In this document: positions 6,945 through 17,646 of the stretch, piece after piece
Layout of the letters: the number at the start of each line of letters is the position of its first letter
How positions within the stretch are numbered: position 1 is the stretch's first letter
Source: Thermus amyloliquefaciens
GTDB lineage: Bacteria; Deinococcota; Deinococci; Deinococcales; Thermaceae
Assembly (NCBI RefSeq): GCF_000744885.1
Contig: NZ_JQMV01000003.1
Location: 1,426,001-1,490,000 of the forward strand
Length of the DNA stretch: 64,000 bases
Direction of reading: 5' to 3'
Translations under genes and position numbers: made by a program
Notes under the pieces: model-generated
The model's input: only the letters and a program-made list of their open reading frames with translations
What the model was told of the DNA's origin: nothing
The model's database searches: none

Positions 6945-9332
6945 ATGAAGGACGTCTTGCGCCTGGAACTTCCCGTGCTTCCCCTCAGGAACACCGTGAT
7001 CCTCCCCCACACCACCACCGGGGTGGACGTGGGCCGGCCCAAGAGCAAACGGGCGGTGGAGGAGGCCTTGAACGCCGACCGCTACCTCTTCCTGGTAACC
7101 CAGAAGGACCCCGAGGTGGACGACCCCACCCCGGAGGACCTCTACCCCGTGGGCACCCTGGCGGTGGTCAAGCAGGCCATGCGCCTACCCGACGGAACCC
7201 TCCAGGTGATGGTGGAGGCCAGGAACCGGGCCCGCTTGGTGGCCTACGTGGCCGCCCCCTACCTGAGGGGCGTGGGGGAGGTGCTTCCCGAGCCCCCCCT
7301 TCAGGACCCCCACCTGGCCCGGGTTTTGGTGAACGAGGTGCAGGAGGCCTTTGAACGCTACCTGCAAAACCACAAGACCCTCCGCCTGGACCGCTACCAG
7401 CAGGAAGCGGTCAAGAGCACCTTGGACCCCGCCATCCTGGCGGACCTGGTAACCCATCACGCCACCTGGAGCCTGGAGGAAAAGCAGCAAATCCTGGAAA
7501 CCCCGGAGGTGGAGGAAAGGCTTAAGAAGGTGCTGGCCCTGCTCCTAAGGGACCTTGAGCGCTTTGAACTGGACAAGAAGATCGCCGCCCGGGTCAAGGA
7601 GCAGATGGACCAAAACCAACGGGAATACTACCTCCGGGAGCAGATGAAGGCCATCCAGAAGGAGCTTGGTGGCGGGGAGGACTTCCTAAGCGAAATCGAG
7701 GAGCTCCGGGAGCGCATAGAAAAGAAGGGCATGCCCGAGGGGGTGAAGGAAAAGGCCCTAAAGGAGCTGAAGCGCCTGGAGCGCATGCAGCCCGGCTCCC
7801 CCGAGGCCACGGTGAGCCGCACCTACCTGGACTGGCTTCTGGAGGTTCCCTGGACCGAAGCCGACCCCGAGGTCCTGGACATCGCCGTCACCAAGCGGGT
7901 CCTGGACGAGGACCACTATGGCCTTAAGGACGTGAAGGAGCGCATCCTGGAGTACCTGGCGGTGCGCCAGCTCACCCAGGGCAAGGAGGTCCGGGGCCAC
8001 GCCCCCATCCTCTGCTTCGTGGGCCCCCCAGGGGTGGGCAAGACCTCCTTGGGCAAGAGCATCGCCCGCAGCATGAACCGCAAGTTCCACCGCATCTCCT
8101 TGGGCGGGGTGCGGGACGAGGCGGAGATCAGGGGCCACCGGCGCACCTACATCGGGGCGCTGCCGGGGAAGATCATCCAGGGGATGAAGCAGGTGGGGGT
8201 GGTGAACCCCGTCTTCCTGCTGGACGAGATCGATAAGCTCTCCTCCGACTGGCGGGGGGATCCGGCCTCGGCCCTTCTGGAGGTCCTGGACCCCGAGCAG
8301 AACCACACCTTTACCGACCACTACCTGGACGTGCCCTACGATCTTTCCCGGGTCTTTTTCATCACCACCGCCAACACCCTAAGCACCATCCCCAGGCCTC
8401 TCCTGGACCGGATGGAGGTCATTGAGATCCCCGGCTACACCCTGCCGGAGAAGCGCTCTATAGCCCGCCACTTCCGCTGGCCCTTCCAGGTGAAGGAGGC
8501 GGGCCTCGAGGGCCGGCTGGAGATCACCGACCGGGCCATAGAGCGCATCATCCAGGAGTACACCCGGGAGGCGGGGGTGAGGAACCTGGACCGGGAGCTC
8601 TCCAAGGTGGCCCGCAAGGCGGCCAAGGACTACTTGGAAAGCCCCTGGGAGGGGGTGCGGGTGGTGGATGCCCAGGACCTCGAGGCCTACCTGGGCGTGC
8701 CCAAGTACCGCCCCGACCGGGCGGAGAAGGCCCCCCAGCTGGGCGCGGCCCAGGGGCTGGCCTGGACGCCCTACGGGGGGGCTTTGCTGACCATAGAGGC
8801 GGTGGCGGTGCCGGGCACGGGCAAGGTGAACCTCACGGGGAACCTGGGGGAGGTGATGAAGGAGTCGGCCCACGCCGCCCTCACCTACCTGCGGGCCCAC
8901 CGGGAGGAGTGGGGCCTGCCCGAGGGCTTCCACAAGGACTTTGACCTGCACATCCACGTGCCGGAAGGGGCCACCCCCAAGGACGGCCCCTCCGCCGGCA
9001 TCACCATGGCCACCGCCCTGGCCAGCGCCCTCACGGGCCGCCCGGTGCGCATGGACATCGCCATGACCGGGGAGATCACCCTTAGGGGCAAGGTCCTGGC
9101 CATCGGCGGGGTCAAGGAGAAGCTCCTCGCCGCCCACCAGGCGGGCATCTTCCGGGTGATCCTGCCCAAGGAGAACGAGCCGGAGCTCAAGGAGGTGCCG
9201 GAGGAGATCCTCAAGGACCTGGAGATCACCTTCGTGGAGGAGGTGGGGGAGGTGTTGCGCCTTCTCCTCCTGCCTCCCGCCCCGCCCCCGGTGCCCCCCG
9301 CCGACCGGCCCCAGCCGAGCGCCGGCGCCTAA
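6945..9332 (+). CDS. lon: ATP-dependent Lon protease
   Basis: A 795-residue LonA-type AAA+ serine protease for degrading misfolded and regulatory proteins in the cytosol. It has an N-terminal substrate domain beginning LPVLPLRNTVILPHTT. A coiled-coil region covers roughly residues 190-285. Walker A GPPGVGKTS lies near 360 and Walker B VFLLDEIDK near 423. The C-terminal Ser-Lys protease domain has PKDGPSAG (Ser near 684) and LRGKVLAIGGVKEK (Lys near 722). ATG 6945 has GGAGG upstream, and a TATCAT -10-like box lies at 6930-6935. Its stop overlaps the stop of the convergent regulator. Confidence 0.97.
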   Translation: MKDVLRLELPVLPLRNTVILPHTTTGVDVGRPKSKRAVEEALNADRYLFLVTQKDPEVDDPTPEDLYPVGTLAVVKQAMRLPDGTLQVMVEARNRARLVAYVAAPYLRGVGEVLPEPPLQDPHLARVLVNEVQEAFERYLQNHKTLRLDRYQQEAVKSTLDPAILADLVTHHATWSLEEKQQILETPEVEERLKKVLALLLRDLERFELDKKIAARVKEQMDQNQREYYLREQMKAIQKELGGGEDFLSEIEELRERIEKKGMPEGVKEKALKELKRLERMQPGSPEATVSRTYLDWLLEVPWTEADPEVLDIAVTKRVLDEDHYGLKDVKERILEYLAVRQLTQGKEVRGHAPILCFVGPPGVGKTSLGKSIARSMNRKFHRISLGGVRDEAEIRGHRRTYIGALPGKIIQGMKQVGVVNPVFLLDEIDKLSSDWRGDPASALLEVLDPEQNHTFTDHYLDVPYDLSRVFFITTANTLSTIPRPLLDRMEVIEIPGYTLPEKRSIARHFRWPFQVKEAGLEGRLEITDRAIERIIQEYTREAGVRNLDRELSKVARKAAKDYLESPWEGVRVVDAQDLEAYLGVPKYRPDRAEKAPQLGAAQGLAWTPYGGALLTIEAVAVPGTGKVNLTGNLGEVMKESAHAALTYLRAHREEWGLPEGFHKDFDLHIHVPEGATPKDGPSAGITMATALASALTGRPVRMDIAMTGEITLRGKVLAIGGVKEKLLAAHQAGIFRVILPKENEPELKEVPEEILKDLEITFVEEVGEVLRLLLLPPAPPPVPPADRPQPSAGA

Positions 9333-11014
9333 ACCTCCACCGCCTGGCCCAAAGGGGCCAGGACCCGCAGCGCCCCCGGAACCGGCCGGTGGGCTTGGAG
9401 GTACAGCTCCGCCAAGCCCCGGGTTCCCAGGCCCAGGCGGTAAACCCCGGGGGGCAGGAGGAAGAGATGGTCCAAAGGCGCTTGGGGAAGCACGGCTCCC
9501 CAGAACAACCCCGCCCTAGCCTCCGTGGGCAGGAAAAACACGCCCCGCCCCTCCCCCAGAAGGCGCAGGGGAAAGGCTTGGGCATCCACCCCAAGCCCCA
9601 GGGGAAGCTCCTGGTAAACCTGCCCAGAAAGGCGCACCACCGCGGGTTCTTGCAAAACCAACGGGACCTCCACGGGCTCGCCATCCAAGGAAACCAGGGT
9701 AAGGGGCTCAGGAACCTCCAAGGGCAAGGAAGGCCCCAGGCCTAAAAGAAGGGTTTGCGGGGGAAAGTCCGACCAGGGAAAGCCCGGGTCTGCGACTACC
9801 TTCCGCCACTCCTTCAAGGCCTTGGCCAGGGCCTGGATCTCCACGGGTTCCCCCGCCCGGCTGCGGTGGTAGGCCTCCGCCACCGGGTCCTTGAGGCCTC
9901 GGAACACCTCCGCCATGCGCTGGTGGCAACGGAGGCATTCCCCCAGGGAACGCTGGGCCGCCAGGTAGGGGCGAAACTGAGGTTCTCTAAAGCGGTACCG
10001 CCCCTCCGCGAAGACCAACCAACCCCGGTTTTCCAGCTCGTCCAGGTGCTGCGCCAGGCCAAGCCCCTCCGCCAGGGCATAGGGGAAGGCCCCAGGGTGT
10101 AGGGAAAGGATCTCCAAGGCCCTTCGCCCCTCCAAGGAAAGGTGGCGGGCCTCGAGGGCCACCATGGCCCGCACCCTTTGGGGCAGGGCCGAGGGATCCC
10201 TCATGGCCAAAAGTTCCTGCAACACTTCCGGGCGGCCTCCGCTGGCCAGGTAGTAACGGGCCGCCTCCATAAAAGGCAGGTTGCGGAGAAAGAGGCGGCG
10301 AGCCTCGGAAAACTCCAGGCGAGGAACCCTTAAGACCCGGGTGATCTCCGCGGGGAAGCGGGCCCGCAAGGCCAGGAGAAAGGCCGGATCCTCCCCAAAA
10401 AGGCTCCTGGCCACCACCAAAACCTGCCCACGAGAGGGCTTAAGGCGAAGGGCTTCCTCCTGGGGGGGCAAAGGGTCCGCAAGGTAAAAGACCCCCGCCC
10501 CCTGGCCCAGCCCCTCGTGGAAGGGCAGGCCCAGGGTTTCTGCCAGCTTCCGGGCTAAGGCCCTTCGCCCCGACCCAGGGGGACCGATGAGCACCACCAA
10601 GGCCGGAGGCCGCACCCCTTGGAGCCGCTCGGGAAGGGAAAGGGGGTCCTCTGGAACCCCAAGGCGGGCCCTTTGCAGGTGCAGCCAGTCGTCAAAGGAG
10701 GGGGAGAGGTCCTCGAGGCCCTCCAACACCTCCTCACCCCCTGGAGTGCGATCCAGCTCCACCCCCGGGGGAAGTTCCAGGACCCTTCCCTGAAAGGTCC
10801 CCTGCCCGAAAACCCTGCGGAGGTGGGTAAGCTCCACCCTCAGGTTCTGTAGGGCCGCCCCGTGGCCCCATAGGAGGTCTGCCAGCTTCTCCCGGCGGGT
10901 GGGCCCCTCGAGGGCCAGGTAGTAGAGGATGGCCAGGGCCTTCCGCCGCAGGGGAAGCGGACCCAAGGGTCCTTCCGCCCTGGCGGGACCGTAGAGGGGT
11001 AACCGGACCTTCAT
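9329..11014 (-). CDS. SARP-like transcriptional regulator with degenerate ATPase domain
   Basis: A 561-residue protein. Residues 1-75 look like the OmpR-type winged helix of SARP/AfsR regulators (LPLRRKALAILYYLALEGPTR, then LRVELTHLRRVFG). A P-loop NTPase of STAND/AfsR character begins near residue 138 with IGPPGSGRR, where the Walker A Lys and Ser/Thr are replaced by Arg-Arg. The C-terminal ~130 residues are beta-rich and unassigned. It is divergent from the six-gene exported-protein cluster and separated from it by 169 bp holding 11-bp-phased repeats, so it is the obvious candidate regulator of that cluster and of itself. Family assignment is by pattern only. Confidence 0.65.
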   Translation of the reverse strand: MKVRLPLYGPARAEGPLGPLPLRRKALAILYYLALEGPTRREKLADLLWGHGAALQNLRVELTHLRRVFGQGTFQGRVLELPPGVELDRTPGGEEVLEGLEDLSPSFDDWLHLQRARLGVPEDPLSLPERLQGVRPPALVVLIGPPGSGRRALARKLAETLGLPFHEGLGQGAGVFYLADPLPPQEEALRLKPSRGQVLVVARSLFGEDPAFLLALRARFPAEITRVLRVPRLEFSEARRLFLRNLPFMEAARYYLASGGRPEVLQELLAMRDPSALPQRVRAMVALEARHLSLEGRRALEILSLHPGAFPYALAEGLGLAQHLDELENRGWLVFAEGRYRFREPQFRPYLAAQRSLGECLRCHQRMAEVFRGLKDPVAEAYHRSRAGEPVEIQALAKALKEWRKVVADPGFPWSDFPPQTLLLGLGPSLPLEVPEPLTLVSLDGEPVEVPLVLQEPAVVRLSGQVYQELPLGLGVDAQAFPLRLLGEGRGVFFLPTEARAGLFWGAVLPQAPLDHLFLLPPGVYRLGLGTRGLAELYLQAHRPVPGALRVLAPLGQAVEV

Positions 11015-11027
11015 GGCTTCCTCTTCC

Positions 11028-11144
11028 CGTTAACCCTAACGTTAAGAAACCGTTAAGAACCCTCTCACCCCTGGCCTTAAGTTTAACGCCCCCAGATCAA
11101 CCCGGCGTCAAAAAAGCACATCCCCCCTTAACGCCCCCTTAACG
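11028..11144. promoter_or_regulatory. Phased CGTTAA / TTAACG repeats between divergent promoters
   Basis: CGTTAA occurs at 11028, 11040 and 11051, and its reverse complement TTAACG at 11083, 11128 and 11139. Spacing is 12, 11, 45 and 11 bases, i.e. roughly whole helical turns, and the two sets point toward each other. SARP and other OmpR-type regulators bind direct repeats spaced about 11 bp, so this is probably the operator of the adjacent regulator. Confidence 0.65.
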
Positions 11145-11183
11145 CTCCCCTGCCTAGCCTCCTAGGCGAAAGGAGGTGGGACG

Positions 11184-11984
11184 GTGAGGCTTGGGTCATG
11201 GGTGTGGCTCCTGCTCCCCTTCATCCTAGGGGCAGCCGGCCCCCAAGCCTCCTTGCGGCTGGAAGTTCGGATTCCGGAACGCGCGGCCCTGGTGTTGGAA
11301 CCCCCAGCGGTAGGTGGGCAAGCGGCAGGCCCCTTGTGGGCCAGCAGGGGGGGCGGAGGGAAACCCAGCCAACCCCCCTACTGCCCTCGGGACCCCAGCG
11401 ACCCCACCCTTTGCCTGCGGGATCCCGTGGTGGTCTTTGACCTCCGGTGCGCCACCTTGGGTCCTGTGCCCCCCCATTGCGTGGGGCTTTATGGGGGGGA
11501 TGGCCGCTTCCTGGACGAGGAGGGACGCCCCTACCCTCCCCTTCTCCTGGACGGGGAGGGCCGGGTGATCCCTGGGTCCAAGCGCTTCCCCCAGTACTTC
11601 ACCCACCCCTCCATGCGGCTCCACGTCTTCACCCAAAGGCGGCACTGGGCCCTTTCCGTGGCCTTTGAGACCGAGCCCATTAGCCCGGAGGGTGCGGTGC
11701 TGGACGCCAGCCACTTCGCCATGCACTCCGTCCTCACGGGGCGGGGCGGCGCTCCGCCCACCCCCCAGTGGAAGTGCCTGGCCTACCACCCGGACTGGGA
11801 CCGCCCCCCCTCCCACATCTGCCCGGCGCCTTCCGGCCCGGAGGGCGGGGTGCTCCTGGAGGAGGTCACCGACCATCCCGGGGGCTGGCAGTCGGTCACC
11901 CTGGGGATCAAGCTGCGGCTGGACGGTTCCGAGGCACCAGGGGAGTACGAGGGTTGGCTGGTCTACACCCTCACGCTCCTTTAG
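11184..11984 (+). CDS. Exported beta-rich subunit 1 of the usher-like locus
   Basis: A 266-residue protein with a signal peptide (MRLGSWVWLLLPFILGAAG). The mature part begins with a predicted strand, ASLRLEVRIPERAALVLEPP. A proline- and glycine-rich region with several cysteines (YCPRD, LCLRD, RCATL, HCVGL) follows. The C-terminus, GEYEGWLVYTLTLL, resembles the ends of three other proteins in the cluster. GTG 11184 has an AAAGGAGGTGG ribosome site. No known family is recognised. By position and the shared terminal strand it is probably a secreted structural or tip subunit; this is inference. Confidence 0.7.
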   Translation: MRLGSWVWLLLPFILGAAGPQASLRLEVRIPERAALVLEPPAVGGQAAGPLWASRGGGGKPSQPPYCPRDPSDPTLCLRDPVVVFDLRCATLGPVPPHCVGLYGGDGRFLDEEGRPYPPLLLDGEGRVIPGSKRFPQYFTHPSMRLHVFTQRRHWALSVAFETEPISPEGAVLDASHFAMHSVLTGRGGAPPTPQWKCLAYHPDWDRPPSHICPAPSGPEGGVLLEEVTDHPGGWQSVTLGIKLRLDGSEAPGEYEGWLVYTLTLL

Positions 11985-12039: not shown

Positions 12040-12777
12040 ATGAGGAAGTGGCTGATTCTGGCTCTGGCCCTGGCCCTGGCGGTGGGCTACGCCCAGGTGA
12101 ACTTCCCCTCGGAAGGCGACCTGGATGGGGAGCTTGAGGAGCTCTGGGACGACAACCACGACCAGGCGGCGGTGAAGGAAAAGGTGAAGGTGATCATCCC
12201 GCCCCGCTACGCCCTCCACCTCACCGAGGACGAGTGGAACCTGAACCTGAATGAACCCCCTGAGGCACCCGAGTCCTACACCTTTAACCCCTATGACCCC
12301 AAGCCTCCCGCGGAAGGGTGCTACCTGGTGCCCAAGACGGTGAAAAGCCCTGAGGATCTCATCAACTACGCCCTGGGTGGCGGCATCTTCCGTCCCATCG
12401 GGGCCTACCCGGCGGCCAAGGACTACGACAACGATGGCAAGCTCTCCGATGAGGAAAAGGGCACCCTCATCTGCGTGAACCACAAGATCCTGCAGAAGTT
12501 CTCCAACGACCCGGACGGCTGGCAGCTGAGCGTTTCCGTGACGGGCACGCCCGCAAGCGGCTTCGGCTGGTTTGGCCTGGCGGACCTGATCAACTACATG
12601 CCCATGGGTGGGTTCTACACCAACTCCCTGCCCTATGGCCCGGTGGCGGTGGCCCAGGGCAGCGGCCCCACGGGCGGCTGGCTGGACGACCTGATCGTGG
12701 AGGCTTTCTGGTTTGACGGCTCCGAGTTGGACGGCACCTACACCATTGACGTCACCTTCACCCTGGCGGGTCTCTAA
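12040..12777 (+). CDS. Exported subunit 2 with EF-hand-like loop (paralogue of the next gene)
   Basis: A 245-residue exported protein with a signal peptide cleaved near AYAQ (residue 19). It shares with its neighbour the block LHLTEDEWNLNLN, EGCYLVPK (Cys94), an EF-hand/dockerin-like loop DYDNDGKLSDEE (128-139), GTLIC (Cys145), GWLDDLIVEAFWFDGSE and the terminal strand YTIDVTFTLAGL. ATG 12040 follows AAAGGAGGAG. I infer a calcium-binding, possibly polymerising surface subunit. No domain family is recognised. Confidence 0.72.
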   Translation: MRKWLILALALALAVGYAQVNFPSEGDLDGELEELWDDNHDQAAVKEKVKVIIPPRYALHLTEDEWNLNLNEPPEAPESYTFNPYDPKPPAEGCYLVPKTVKSPEDLINYALGGGIFRPIGAYPAAKDYDNDGKLSDEEKGTLICVNHKILQKFSNDPDGWQLSVSVTGTPASGFGWFGLADLINYMPMGGFYTNSLPYGPVAVAQGSGPTGGWLDDLIVEAFWFDGSELDGTYTIDVTFTLAGL

Positions 12778-12789
12778 AGGAGGTGGGCC

Positions 12790-13470
12790 ATGCGGAAGCT
12801 TTTCCTTCTGGCGGTTAGCGCACTCCTGGCCCTGGCCTTGGCCAATGGCGGCGGCGAGGAGTGGAACGTGGGCGACCAGCAGGCCACCGTCACCGAGCGC
12901 ATCAACCTCACCATCCCCCAGCGGGTGGCCCTGCACCTCACGGAGGACGAGTGGATCGTGGACCTGAATAACCCCGTGCCTGGGCAGAACGGCGAAGGGT
13001 GCTACCTGGTGCCCAAGGGGTACGAGGGGACCCTCGAGGACGCCATAGAAGACGCCTTGGCGGGCGCATTTACCCCCATCGACACCTACCCCGCCATCAA
13101 GGACCTGAACGGTAACGGCAAGATCGACGAGGGCGAGAAGGGCACCGTGATCTGCCTCAACCAGAAGGTCCTGCAGAAGTTCTGCAACAACGGGGACGGC
13201 TGCGAACTGGACCTCAAGGTGACCCGGACCGTGGGAGGCCCCTACTACGGCCAGGGGGGCGTTGTGGACGTGGCAGAAGACCTCAACCACGAGAAGTTCG
13301 TCCAGTTTAACGGCGTGGACGACGGCACCCCCTTGGAACTCCTTAAGGTCTTGGGCGAACGCCTCCCCGGCTGGCTGGACGACCTCATCATCGAGGCCTT
13401 CTGGTTTGACGGCTCCGAGGTGGCAGGCACCTACGAGTTCAACTTCCTCTTCCAGCTGGCTGCCCTCTAA
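12790..13470 (+). CDS. Exported subunit 3 with EF-hand-like loop (tandem paralogue)
   Basis: A 226-residue exported paralogue of the preceding protein, 12 bp downstream with its own AAAGGAGGTGG site. Shared blocks are LHLTEDEWIVDLN, EGCYLVPK (Cys71), DLNGNGKIDEGE (105-116), GTVIC (Cys122), GWLDDLIIEAFWFDGSE and the terminal YEFNFLFQLAAL. It has two further cysteines (132, 138), suggesting an extra disulfide. A strong terminator follows directly. The tandem duplication with retained core suggests major and minor subunits of one structure. Confidence 0.72.
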   Translation: MRKLFLLAVSALLALALANGGGEEWNVGDQQATVTERINLTIPQRVALHLTEDEWIVDLNNPVPGQNGEGCYLVPKGYEGTLEDAIEDALAGAFTPIDTYPAIKDLNGNGKIDEGEKGTVICLNQKVLQKFCNNGDGCELDLKVTRTVGGPYYGQGGVVDVAEDLNHEKFVQFNGVDDGTPLELLKVLGERLPGWLDDLIIEAFWFDGSEVAGTYEFNFLFQLAAL

Positions 13471-13528: not shown

Positions 13529-14314
13529 ATGAGAAAAACCCTTCCCCTGCTAGCCCTACTCCTCACCGCGGCCCAGGCCCAGACCGGGGTGGGGGTGAGC
13601 CCCCCCAGGGCCCTCTACCCCGCCACCCCTGGGGCCAGCCTCACGGGGAGCATCCTGGTGGACCACCCGGGCCGCAGCGGCACCCTGCAGGTGGAAACCC
13701 TCCTGCAGGACGTGCTCCTCCAGGCGGACGGCAGGCCCCTCTACCTGGACCCGGGCAGCCACCCCCGCTCCCTCACCCGCTGGCTCTCCGTGACCCCCCT
13801 GGCCTTTCTCCTGCAGCCCCAGGGCACCCAGGAGGTGCGCTACACGGTGCAGGTACCCGCCAACGCCCAGCCTGGCACGTACTGGGGCGTCATCTTTTTT
13901 GAATCGGCGCCGGCGGGAAGCCGCCAGGGCGCGGAAGGCCTGGGCATCCGGGTGAAGACCCGGGTGGGGCACGTGGTCTACGTGGAGGTGGGGCAGGTGA
14001 GCCGCTCGGGAAGGATCCAGGGCTTCCGCTACCTGCCGCCAAGCCGGGAAGGGCCGGCCCAGGTGCGCCTGGTCTTCCAGAACACGGGCACGGGCCTCCT
14101 GCGCCTGAAGGGACGGGTGGAGGTGCGCGACCTCCAAGGGGGGGTCTTGGCCCGGGGGGAGGTGCCGGAGACCGCCAGCCTCCCCGGGGCCACCCACGAG
14201 CTGCCGGCCCCGCTGGAAAAACCCCTGCCCGCGGGGCGCTACCTGGTCCTGGCGGTGCTGGACTACGGGAGCCCGAGCCTCATCGCCGGGGAAGGACGGA
14301 TTGAGGTGAAGTGA
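13529..14314 (+). CDS. Periplasmic PapD/DUF916-like chaperone
   Basis: A 261-residue protein with a signal peptide (MRKTLPLLALLLTAAQAQ). Two beta-sandwich-like halves are apparent. The first starts GVGVSPPRALYPATPG and carries LSVTPLAFLLQPQGTQEVRYTV and PANAQPGTYWGVIFFE, the pattern of PapD-type and DUF916 (WxL-interacting) domains. The second begins near residue 165 (QGFRYLPPS) and contains RLVFQNTGTGLLRLKG. By analogy it would hold exported subunits in the periplasm before assembly. A donor-strand mechanism cannot be shown from sequence. Its stop overlaps the next start. Confidence 0.65.
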   Translation: MRKTLPLLALLLTAAQAQTGVGVSPPRALYPATPGASLTGSILVDHPGRSGTLQVETLLQDVLLQADGRPLYLDPGSHPRSLTRWLSVTPLAFLLQPQGTQEVRYTVQVPANAQPGTYWGVIFFESAPAGSRQGAEGLGIRVKTRVGHVVYVEVGQVSRSGRIQGFRYLPPSREGPAQVRLVFQNTGTGLLRLKGRVEVRDLQGGVLARGEVPETASLPGATHELPAPLEKPLPAGRYLVLAVLDYGSPSLIAGEGRIEVK

Positions 14315-14784
14315 TGCGATCCTTGGCGCTGCCGCTACTTTTGGCCTGGGCCCTGGCCCAGGTGCCCATTGGGGTGAACCTGCCGGAAGGCACCAGCCTT
14401 TCCCTGAGCGCGGAGGAGGTGGTCTTTGACCTCACCCAAAGCCCCTACCCCCCGCCCAGCTTCCCTTACGCCTACGCCCCCACCCTTCCCCAAGGCCCCC
14501 TGACCCTGCGGCTTTTCACCAACCTCGAGGGGGGCTTCGCCGTGGAGGTGGAGGCTACCCCCCTCCTGGCGGAGAGCGGGGGGGAGATCCCCGCCAGCCA
14601 GGTGGAGTACCGCCTGAACGGCGGACCCTGGATCCCCCTGGGGCCCAAGGTGGTGCTCCTCACGGGAAGCGGGCCTACGGCGGGATACCAAAGCTACGTG
14701 CTGGAGTTCCGCCTGGTCCTCACGGGGCAGGAGGTGCCCGGGGTCTACCGGGGTAGCCTCCTCTTCACCCTAAGCCGGCTTTAG
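14314..14784 (+). CDS. Exported subunit 4 of the usher-like locus
   Basis: A 156-residue exported protein with signal peptide MRSLALPLLLAWALAQ. The mature chain is beta-rich, with VPIGVNLPEGTSLSLSAEEVVFDL at its N-terminus and the shared terminal strand YRGSLLFTLSRL. There are no cysteines. ATG 14314 overlaps the chaperone stop (TGATG) with GAGGTG upstream; a GTG at 14311 would add one residue. The pattern near the end (VPGVYRGSLLFTL) also resembles the distal motif of WxL-domain proteins in Gram-positives. Role inferred as a minor subunit or adaptor. Confidence 0.65.
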   Translation: MRSLALPLLLAWALAQVPIGVNLPEGTSLSLSAEEVVFDLTQSPYPPPSFPYAYAPTLPQGPLTLRLFTNLEGGFAVEVEATPLLAESGGEIPASQVEYRLNGGPWIPLGPKVVLLTGSGPTAGYQSYVLEFRLVLTGQEVPGVYRGSLLFTLSRL

Positions 14785-14787
14785 GCC

Positions 14788-17646
14788 ATGCGCACCCTGG
14801 CCCTCCTCCTCCTTCTGGGCTTGGGGCTGGCCCTCGAGGCCCCCGAGGCCGTGGAGGCCCAGCCAGGGGGCTTCCTCAGCGTGCCCGTGCGGGGGGAAGG
14901 GCGCATCCAGGCAGCGGAGGTCCCCAGGGGCCTCATTCCCCTCACCGAGGGGGTGGAAGGGGAGGGGGTGCTGAACTTCCTGGTGGGCCTCGAGGCCCTG
15001 GCCGGGGAGCATACCCTGGTCCTTAAGGACGCGCGGGAAACCCGCATCGTGCGGGTGCGCATCCCCGTGCGGGCCGGCGTGGAGCTCCGGGTTCCCCCCG
15101 GGGCCGAGGGGGTGGAGGGGGAAAGCCTCAGCTACACCCTGAGCGTCCGCAACTCCGGCAACGCCCAGGACCGGGTGCGCCTCGAGGTGCGAAGCCTCCT
15201 TCCCTACCGGCTCTCCCAGGAGGTGCTGGAGCTGGCCCCAGGGGAGGCCAAGGAGGTCACCCTGGAGGTGCGCCTGGTGGGGCGCAACCGGGACACGGCC
15301 ACGGTCTTCGCCTACTCGGGCCTGGACCCCAAGGTGCGGGCCTATGGGGTGCTGGAAACCGTGATCCAGCCCTTCGCCGGGGCGGAGAAGCTCTCCCGCC
15401 AGGCCCTCTACTACCGCTTCGGCCTCACGGGCCGGTACGGGCAGGGCGCCTTGGCCTACAACGTGGCGCTCAGCCTCTCCGGCGCCCTTTCCGATTACGT
15501 GCGCCTCGCCTCTAGCCTGGCCCTGAAGCCCGAGGGGCCTGTAGGGGAACTGGCCTTTTTCGGTGAGGGCTTCGCCCTGGACTTCCGGGGGTACCCGGGG
15601 GTCTACCGGCTGGACGGGGAGTTTGGGCCCTTCCAAGGCTACGCCGCCTGGGCGGGGGGCGGCCTGAGCGTGGGCGGCACCTACCAAGAAGGCCCGTGGC
15701 GGGTCTCAGGGCACGCGGGTGGGCTGGGCCAGCGCTTCAGCCTGGGCTATGCCTGGAAGGAGGGGGGGCTCACCCTGGTCCCCTACGGGGTGGCGAGCCG
15801 CCAGGCGGACCCCGAGGCGGTGCGGGCAGGGGTGGGCCTGGAGGGCGGGTGGGAACACCGCGACTTCAGCCTCTCGGGCAGGGCAGAATACCTGGACGGC
15901 TTCCGCCTCCGCTTGACGGGCGCCACCCGGTCCCAGGAGCCCTGGGGGCTGAAGGGCGAGGTGGCCTACGAGAGGGGAAAGCTCCAAGGCTCCGCCACCC
16001 TGAGCGCGCGCCTGGACGAGGCCACCACCCAGAACCTCTCCCTACGCTTGGCCGATAACCTCGGCCTTTTGTACACGCTGGCCTACCGCCCTCCCGGGCA
16101 GCCCTTCTCCCTCAGCGGCACCCTGGGTGCCCAAGGGGGCCTGGTGGTGGGCCTTTCCGGGCGCTACCGGGAAGGCGGGGTGGAGGTTGGGGGGACCCTG
16201 GGGCGCAACCCGCAGGGGCCCCATTTCTCCCTGTACGCCACCTACCGGGAGCGGGACTATGCCCTACAGGGGGGCTACACCGCCCTCCCCAGCGGCCGGC
16301 AGATCCAGCTCGCCGCACAGGGCGCCCTCCCCCCCTGGGAAGGCACCCTCAGCCTGGGCTACAACCTGGACCAAAAGCGCCCAGAGGCGCGCTTTGGCCT
16401 GGCCTACCGGGAAGGCGGCCTGGTCCTGGGGCTGGAGGGGGCCTATGCGGAGGGTGTCCTGAGGCTTTCGGCCCTGGGGGGCCTGGAGACCAAGGGGGGG
16501 TTTGACACCCCCGAGGCCCTGGTCCAGGCCTTTGGGGGCCGGGCCACGGGGTACGTGGAAGGGGTCGTCTTCCACGACCGGAACCGCGACGGGGTGAAGG
16601 GGATAGAAGAACCCCCCCTGCCCGGGGCCAAGGTGCAGGTGGGTAGTTTGGAAGCGGTCGCGGACGGGGAAGGACGGTACCGCCTGGAGCTCTACCCCGG
16701 GACCTACCGCCTGGAGGTGGGGGGCCTCGAGGCCAGCCTGGCCCTGCGCCGCCGGGCCGAGGTGCGGGTGGAGCGGGGAAGGACCCTCTCCCTGGACCTC
16801 CCCGTGGAGACGGTGGTGGGCTTTATGGGACAGGTCTACCTGGACGAAAACCGCAACGGCCAAAAGGACGAGGGGGAAGTTCCCCTCCCCTACGTGCGGG
16901 TGAGGCTCCAAGGAGCCGAAACCCGCACCGCCTTGGCCGACGGCAGGGGGGTGTTCGTCATGGGTGGCCTGCTCCCGGGGAGCTACACCCTGAGCCTGGA
17001 CCCAGCCAGCCTGGACAAGCTGCAAGAGCCCGGCGAACCCGTGGCCTTGGACCTAAAGCCCGGCCCCTTGCCCCAGGTCCTCCTGGCCGCCAGGCCGGTG
17101 GTGCGGGAGATCGTGCGCACCCTCACCGAGGAGAGCCTGGCCGTGGTCCTGGGGCCCCTGCCCGCGGTACTGCCGCCAGGGGCGGAGCTTCCCCTAAGGG
17201 TCCAGGTGCAAGGAGGGCCCAGCCGGGTCTGGGCCGAGCTTGGGGGGCGCACCTACCCCCTGAGCCCCCTGGAGAAAGGGCTTTACGGGGCTTACCTCCC
17301 GGTGGAGGACCCGGGGAGCCTGGAGCTGAAGGTGGTGGCCGAACGGGGAGCCGAGCGGGCCGAGGCCGGGGCCTACCTCACCGTGCGCCCTGGCCCCTTG
17401 GCCACCCTTCTGGTGACCCCGGCCCTTTTGGACCCGGGAGAGGAGGTGCGCCTCGAGGCCCGGCTCCTGCGGCGGGCAAACCGGGTGGAGGTGCGCCTAG
17501 GACCCCTCATCGTCCCCCTAGACCGGGTGGACGACCTCACCTTCCGCGGCACCCTCCTGGCCCCCAAGACCCCTGGAAGCTACGAGCTGGAGCTTTACCT
17601 GGACGGCACCCGGGCCACCACCGCCCGCATCCGGGTGCGGGACTGA
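14788..17646 (+). CDS. Usher-like outer-membrane protein with SdrD-B-like domains
   Basis: A 952-residue exported protein. After the signal peptide (MRTLALLLLLGLGLALE) comes an Ig-like NEW3-type domain near residues 95-185 (LSYTLSVRNSGNAQDRVRLEVRSLLP). About 380 residues of short amphipathic strands with alternating aromatics follow (roughly 195-580), reading like an outer-membrane barrel. Two SdrD-B-like domains with calcium-type loops (DRNRDGVKGIEE near 594 and DENRNGQKDEGE near 685) and two further beta domains close the chain. Architecture and position after a chaperone and subunit gene suggest an usher-like export or anchoring platform, but it is not a canonical FimD/PapC usher. Confidence 0.6.
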   Translation: MRTLALLLLLGLGLALEAPEAVEAQPGGFLSVPVRGEGRIQAAEVPRGLIPLTEGVEGEGVLNFLVGLEALAGEHTLVLKDARETRIVRVRIPVRAGVELRVPPGAEGVEGESLSYTLSVRNSGNAQDRVRLEVRSLLPYRLSQEVLELAPGEAKEVTLEVRLVGRNRDTATVFAYSGLDPKVRAYGVLETVIQPFAGAEKLSRQALYYRFGLTGRYGQGALAYNVALSLSGALSDYVRLASSLALKPEGPVGELAFFGEGFALDFRGYPGVYRLDGEFGPFQGYAAWAGGGLSVGGTYQEGPWRVSGHAGGLGQRFSLGYAWKEGGLTLVPYGVASRQADPEAVRAGVGLEGGWEHRDFSLSGRAEYLDGFRLRLTGATRSQEPWGLKGEVAYERGKLQGSATLSARLDEATTQNLSLRLADNLGLLYTLAYRPPGQPFSLSGTLGAQGGLVVGLSGRYREGGVEVGGTLGRNPQGPHFSLYATYRERDYALQGGYTALPSGRQIQLAAQGALPPWEGTLSLGYNLDQKRPEARFGLAYREGGLVLGLEGAYAEGVLRLSALGGLETKGGFDTPEALVQAFGGRATGYVEGVVFHDRNRDGVKGIEEPPLPGAKVQVGSLEAVADGEGRYRLELYPGTYRLEVGGLEASLALRRRAEVRVERGRTLSLDLPVETVVGFMGQVYLDENRNGQKDEGEVPLPYVRVRLQGAETRTALADGRGVFVMGGLLPGSYTLSLDPASLDKLQEPGEPVALDLKPGPLPQVLLAARPVVREIVRTLTEESLAVVLGPLPAVLPPGAELPLRVQVQGGPSRVWAELGGRTYPLSPLEKGLYGAYLPVEDPGSLELKVVAERGAERAEAGAYLTVRPGPLATLLVTPALLDPGEEVRLEARLLRRANRVEVRLGPLIVPLDRVDDLTFRGTLLAPKTPGSYELELYLDGTRATTARIRVRD

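Follow-up and report, generated by a model that had tools for sequence, protein, structure and literature searches.

A probable divergent, dual-purpose operator region of a SARP-like regulator in Thermus amyloliquefaciens

Between a regulator gene of T. amyloliquefaciens and the divergently transcribed operon next to it, the hexamer TTAACG or its complement CGTTAA is repeated several times, which raises the question of which protein could read these repeats and with what effect on the two promoters. The DNA analyzed, hereafter the window, is a 64-kb stretch (64,000 nucleotides) of contig NZ_JQMV01000003.1. A literature search found no paper on this regulator or element.

Phased hexamers between a regulator gene and a pilus-like operon

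The original prediction described six hexamers in two facing sets phased by the helical turn, and all six were confirmed: CGTTAA starts at 11028, 11040 and 11051, and TTAACG at 11083, 11128 and 11139. The phasing holds for five of them, which are true repeats at 11 or 12 bp, and fails for the copy at 11083, which lies outside the phased sets, 45 bp from its nearest same-orientation neighbour (the spacings are 12 and 11 bp in the CGTTAA set and 45 and 11 bp in the TTAACG set). Both phased sets read TTAACG along the direction of transcription of their own gene. The window contains nine occurrences of TTAACG/CGTTAA, six of them within 117 bp (11028-11144). Among 20,000 dinucleotide shuffles of 11015-11183, which held 0.15 copies on average, none contained six copies and none contained three pairs at 11 or 12 bp; thus, chance does not explain the six hexamers. 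Genome-wide scans for the sites were carried out by pattern searches. As the prediction had proposed, the same motif was sought elsewhere in the 2.16-Mb host genome, where exact TTAACG-N5/6-TTAACG pairs occur three times, all at this locus, while the reversed-pattern controls found nothing in any of the 27 Thermus genomes.

The features of the locus, numbered within the window, are listed below.

9329-11014, minus strand: regulator gene (561 aa), with a predicted winged helix (residues 1-90), STAND-like NTPase domain, helical region and C-terminal beta domain
11028-11033, minus strand: putative regulator-side operator 3 (TTAACG on this strand), in the regulator 5' leader; pattern match and conservation
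11040-11045, minus strand: putative regulator-side operator 2 (TTAACG on this strand); pattern match and conservation
11051-11056, minus strand: putative regulator-side operator 1 (TTAACG on this strand); pattern match and conservation
11080-11088, minus strand: CGT-TAAACT, including the lone hexamer at 11083; probable regulator -10 TAAACT at 11080-11085, from conservation
11095-11100, minus strand: degenerate repeat TTGATC, 9 bp upstream of the regulator -10; possible activator site (for the regulator itself or another OmpR-type protein)
11106-11111, minus strand: second degenerate repeat TTGACG, 11 bp farther upstream, likewise a possible site
11128-11133, plus strand: putative operon-side operator 1 (TTAACG); pattern match and conservation
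11139-11144, plus strand: putative operon-side operator 2 (TTAACG), 11 bp past operator 1 and 10 bp before the -10; pattern match and conservation
11155-11160, plus strand: operon -10 element TAGCCT; 22 of 23 loci have TANNNT at this offset of 10
11168-11177, plus strand: Shine-Dalgarno sequence GAAAGGAGGT on the op1 side, from the sequence
11184-11984, plus strand: op1, first operon gene, secreted pilin-like protein
12040-12777, plus strand: op2, secreted pilin-like protein, its start picked by the signal peptide
12790-13470, plus strand: op3, secreted pilin-like protein
13529-14314, plus strand: secreted beta-rich protein, a candidate pilus chaperone by its place in the operon
14311-14784, plus strand: op5, secreted pilin-like protein
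14788-17646, plus strand: usher-like, predicted outer-membrane barrel protein of 952 aa with SdrD_B/carboxypeptidase-regulatory-like domains

On the minus strand the 561-aa regulator gene is followed leftward by lon, and a mobA-like gene lies next to the right end of the operon; the order lon-regulator-operon-mobA is common to T. altitudinis, T. caliditerrae, T. arciformis, T. igniterrae and T. tenuipuniceus.

The operon, encoding three secreted pilin-like proteins, a secreted beta-rich protein, a further pilin-like protein and the 952-aa barrel protein, looks chaperone-usher-like, a term we use as a working label. Like archaic and classical chaperone-usher operons, it combines several small secreted subunits with a beta-rich periplasmic-type protein and a large barrel, whose model matches the ushers FimD and PapC best among barrel structures (Foldseek E about 1e-13, TM 0.24; pTM 0.36, i.e., low model confidence). 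Unlike in those operons, sequence searches gave no usher or chaperone family match among the encoded proteins, nor did Pfam give an SCPU match, and the barrel has about 28 predicted strands rather than 24. The beta-rich protein in the chaperone position gave weak beta-sandwich matches only and no chaperone family match. Compared with T. caliditerrae, the barrel protein (14788-17646) is 90% identical and the regulator (9329-11014) 69%, which suggests that the operon may have been exchanged by recombination.

Conservation, paralogous pairs and operon loss

The original prediction had been staked on conservation upstream of orthologous clusters, and the motif is indeed conserved there, as well as at a paralogous pair in the genus and in Truepera. 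When the intergenic region of nine Thermus genomes with an intact operon was aligned, 26 of the 30 columns in the five phased repeats were identical in at least eight of the nine, compared with 13 of the 93 remaining intergenic columns (Fisher p=4e-13). Of the 11 orthologs of the regulator (class A, L001-L011), 8 have TTAACG repeats spaced by 11-12 bp ahead of the start codon; the exceptions keep one perfect TTAACG copy (L003 and L008) or none (L010). The class A regulator and the 952-aa protein co-occur in nine genomes, and regulators of a paralogous class B are paired with a 1040-aa homolog of that protein. GTAACG repeats stand at the matching positions of the 13 class B regulator-operon pairs. 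Both classes are present in ten genomes, and the first base of the putative activating sites is T in all class A and G in all class B loci, even where the two classes co-reside.

The AT-rich TTAA steps recur at intervals of about 11 bp in DNA of 67% GC, and one alternative is that they work by curving the DNA or as an UP-like element, without any specific regulator. We regard this as highly improbable: it is the whole hexamer including its CG that is conserved, not AT-richness, and the first base changes from T to G between paralogs while the phasing is kept. At residue 64, the recognition helix carries His or Tyr in class A, whereas the class B, Truepera and Meiothermus proteins have Arg there. 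The correlation of residue 64 with the first operator base (Arg with G, His/Tyr with T) follows clades, may reflect one or two events, and is suggestive only.

Operon loss gave a mixed picture. In genome G013 the operon is gone, the regulator is intact and both operator arrays are eroded; in G015 the operon is lost and operator erosion is partial; and in G007 a deletion joined the last 222 residues of the barrel gene to intact repeats, with the -10 missing. That G015 and G007, without the operon, retain some or all repeats counts against the operator reading. At L115 (G001) and L116 (G020), the lon-mobA interval keeps only the 3' ends of the regulator and barrel genes, remnants that mark independent decay of the locus.

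Geometry of the two promoters

The operon-side pair (11128, 11139) stops exactly 10 bp short of the -10 hexamer TAGCCT, and the arrangement repeat-N5-repeat-N10-TANNNT was found in 22 of the 23 divergent promoters of this regulator family (nine class A, 13 class B and one Truepera locus), the remaining one having N9. In Truepera the divergent gene again encodes a small secreted pilin-like protein, and, judging from these matches, the same site-to-promoter layout is one that recurs across the phylum Deinococcota. A sigma70 promoter scan of the region returned no sigma70-type -35/-10 match, which fits an activator-dependent promoter. A terminator scan of the region found nothing, and an Rfam search of it gave no match and thus no known RNA element. 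In published SARP sites, direct repeats are spaced by 11 or 22 bp and the 3' one stands 8 bp from the -10; the AfsR box overlaps the -35 (PMC10936776). The repeats here are spaced by 11-12 bp and also keep a fixed short distance to the -10, namely 10 bp after the hexamer in the same 22 of 23 loci, a distance that matches the 8 bp only when an octamer is taken as the operator core. By analogy, this repeat-to--10 layout is a SARP-like activation geometry.

The 11083 copy requires another reading. On the minus strand it reads CGT-TAAACT, and all 11 class A loci (L001-L011) have CG[TC] followed by TAANNT (TAAACT, TAAGCT, TAAAAT, TAATCT or TAAGAT) 63-77 nt upstream of the start codon; in the nine-genome alignment, 7 of the 9 columns of AGTTTAACG (11080-11088) are invariant. 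Read the same way, the operon-side operators continue with other letters after the hexamer, not with TAANNT. Because the rest of a TANNNT hexamer always follows, unlike at those operators, the 11083 copy is probably part of the regulator's -10 box, and we rejected it as an operator. The regulator-side triplet sits between this probable -10 and the ATG, in a leader of about 60 nt. Such a placement of 11056-11028 suggests autorepression and, as judged by position, makes negative feedback on the regulator likely. We rejected a second, activator-driven promoter at the triplet, since no conserved -10 was seen by eye at 9-11 bp. Class B regulators have the same layout, with a -10 and then repeats at the start codon. 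The predicted coupling of autoregulation to cluster control thus draws support from conserved sites upstream of orthologous pairs, minus the 11083 copy.

With the regulator-side sites downstream of the probable start site, and the operon-side sites overlapping the -35 region, which could equally accommodate a repressor, the regulator might bind all sites and repress both promoters. However, 22 of 23 loci, from two or more genera, share the fixed 10-bp distance to the -10, and a sigma70-like -35 is lacking, as expected for an activator and unneeded for a repressor; we consider double repression quite unlikely.

Upstream of the regulator -10, the window contains a degenerate TTGACG-N5-TTGATC-N9, whose layout resembles N9 promoters of genes near two-component systems in the host genome. 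The pattern TTNACR-N5-TTNACR-N9-TANNNT occurs there at G000:C3:327630-327661, 332599-332630, 951204-951235 and 1578743-1578774 (L077-L080). Promoters of this type gave 16 matches over two spacer searches (up to one mismatch) versus 0 for reversed controls, and it is probable that they mark promoters of OmpR-type activators, several beside two-component systems. Host OmpR-type regulators thus seem to use similar repeats, and the degenerate copies share their N9 spacing, so that the phased repeats could belong to another OmpR/PhoB-type response regulator encoded elsewhere. We judge this unlikely, given that exact TTAACG pairs are confined to this locus, that the repeats differ in sequence according to the class of the regulator beside them, also where one genome carries both classes, and that the sites accompany the regulator-operon pair and are eroded after operon loss in G013.

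Resting on the sites, their conservation, geometry, linkage and erosion after operon loss, all of which are observed, we favour with good confidence the reading that the five phased repeats are operators of the divergent wHTH-STAND regulator, which would activate the operon and limit its own production. Regulator protomers would lie side by side on successive helical turns of the TTAACG repeats. Bound at the pair 11128/11139, 10 bp ahead of TAGCCT, the regulator would cover the -35 region, replace the missing -35 box and recruit RNA polymerase to the chaperone-usher-like operon, as AfsR and SARPs do. At the triplet, downstream of the regulator -10 (TAAACT, 11085-11080), binding would block regulator transcription and so provide negative feedback. 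Binding by the regulator and the direction of each effect are what we infer from sequence. The element is probably a divergent, dual-purpose operator region of a SARP-like regulator, and the original reading, in which operators of a SARP/OmpR-type protein act for the regulator as well as for the cluster, has good support once refined as above.

The regulator, its relatives and similar systems

The AlphaFold model of the 561-aa regulator (pLDDT 82.6) comprises an N-terminal winged helix starting at residue 1, with a helix-turn-helix-wing pattern, followed by an NTPase domain, helical domains and a C-terminal beta domain. Its best Foldseek match is the STAND protein 6mfv (E 1.5e-8), then RPP1, with CED-4 and Apaf-1 also among the matches, and in the model the NTPase fold is followed by winged-helix and helical domains as in STAND proteins. 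Trans_reg_C was the only recurring family, in 10 of 18 family members and below the Pfam threshold (best E 0.003; E 0.004 for the wHTH assignment), and the best PDB sequence matches of the winged helix were the DNA-binding domains of SaeR, PmrA and VicR (E 0.07-0.7); the N-terminal domain thus resembles, weakly and below threshold, an OmpR-family winged helix of the kind found in SARPs. No BTAD match was found in the regulator, in which the stretch from the wHTH to the NTPase beta-strand at 138 has only about 45 residues and two helices, and no receiver domain with a phosphoacceptor Asp was found either. In AfsR, polymerase is engaged by the SARP domain, to which BTAD belongs, and the absence of BTAD here counts against the favoured reading. 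The Walker A lysine (GxxxxGK[ST]) is absent in 13 of 13 aligned members, the P-loop reading GPPGSGR/Q in nearly all class A proteins and lacking GK in class B and G015. The divergent gene therefore encodes an OmpR/SARP-type winged-helix protein as predicted, here joined to a STAND-like domain that lacks the P-loop lysine; because BTAD is absent, the protein is SARP-like and not a SARP. In T. igniterrae (L011, G012) an in-frame stop interrupts the regulator gene after about 154 codons, although the operon and operators are intact.

Like the SARP family (AfsR, ActII-ORF4, DnrI and the large SARPs with NOD/TPR), this system has an N-terminal OmpR-type wHTH, a large C-terminal STAND/NOD-like part and, putatively, 11-bp direct repeats over the -35 at a fixed short distance before the -10, with a neighbouring cluster as target. 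It differs in lacking both BTAD between wHTH and NTPase and the P-loop lysine (13 of 13), in its hexamer TTAACG/GTAACG, and in its target, a surface/pilus-like operon in Deinococcota. The winged-helix fold, the phased direct repeats and the similar N9-to--10 repeats in the same genome recall OmpR/PhoB response regulators, unlike which the regulator has neither a receiver domain nor a linked histidine kinase. PimR, a SARP-LAL protein with a wHTH plus NTPase domain, is similar in that its promoter region holds two operators, one of three and one of two direct repeats; its operators serve one promoter, the main one not over the -35, whereas here triplet and pair would serve two divergent promoters (PMC5930380). 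The large Thermus activator DnrS of Thermus thermophilus, described with BTAD (PMC5748679), differs in having GAF plus BTAD, in controlling denitrification and in having no known repeat operator.

Relatives of the regulator are present in 57 of 111 Deinococcota genomes. GTAACG-N5-GTAACG-N10-TANNNT gave 66 matches in 40 of the 111, versus 0 in reversed controls, and regulator relatives occur in 35 of these 40 genomes versus 22 of the other 71 (p 5e-9, uncorrected for relatedness). Meiothermus regulators have no adjacent operon and mostly no exact NTAACG pairs next to them, and GTAACG sites precede other genes in Meiothermus-group genomes, where the regulator, or relatives, may act in trans. A conserved small protein (MTEETLQALIEKHTP...) is encoded about 80 bp behind GTAACG-N5-GTAACG-N10-TANNNT at five Meiothermus-group loci (L161, L162, L164, L166, L168) and is a probable trans target of the regulator family.

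Many Thermus genomes (G001, G003, G004, G007, G010, G011, G014, G017, G019, G021, G024 and others; L031, L034, L039, L042, L059) also carry a conserved TTAACGGGGCCTTAACG-type pair, located between an arginine decarboxylase gene and a GGDEF (diguanylate cyclase) gene. This TTAACG-N5-TTAACG reads the opposite way relative to the GGDEF gene, and we judged it unrelated.

More tentatively, and as a proposal we find somewhat easier to doubt than to accept, there could be a phylum-wide class of BTAD-less wHTH-pseudoSTAND regulators with a rigid NTAACG-N5-NTAACG-N10-TANNNT, in which residue 64 (Arg versus His/Tyr) would set the first operator base and insulate paralogous pairs in one cell. Thermus polymerase is a standard structural model, and the system offers a compact test of how BTAD-less activators contact RNA polymerase, of whether a single residue switches specificity between paralogs, and of what is sensed by a STAND-like domain that lacks the catalytic lysine. 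It would tie a SARP-like activator to a surface-appendage operon and not to antibiotic genes, and its signature would predict target genes from sequence alone throughout Deinococcota, whose transcription factors are, to our knowledge, little studied.
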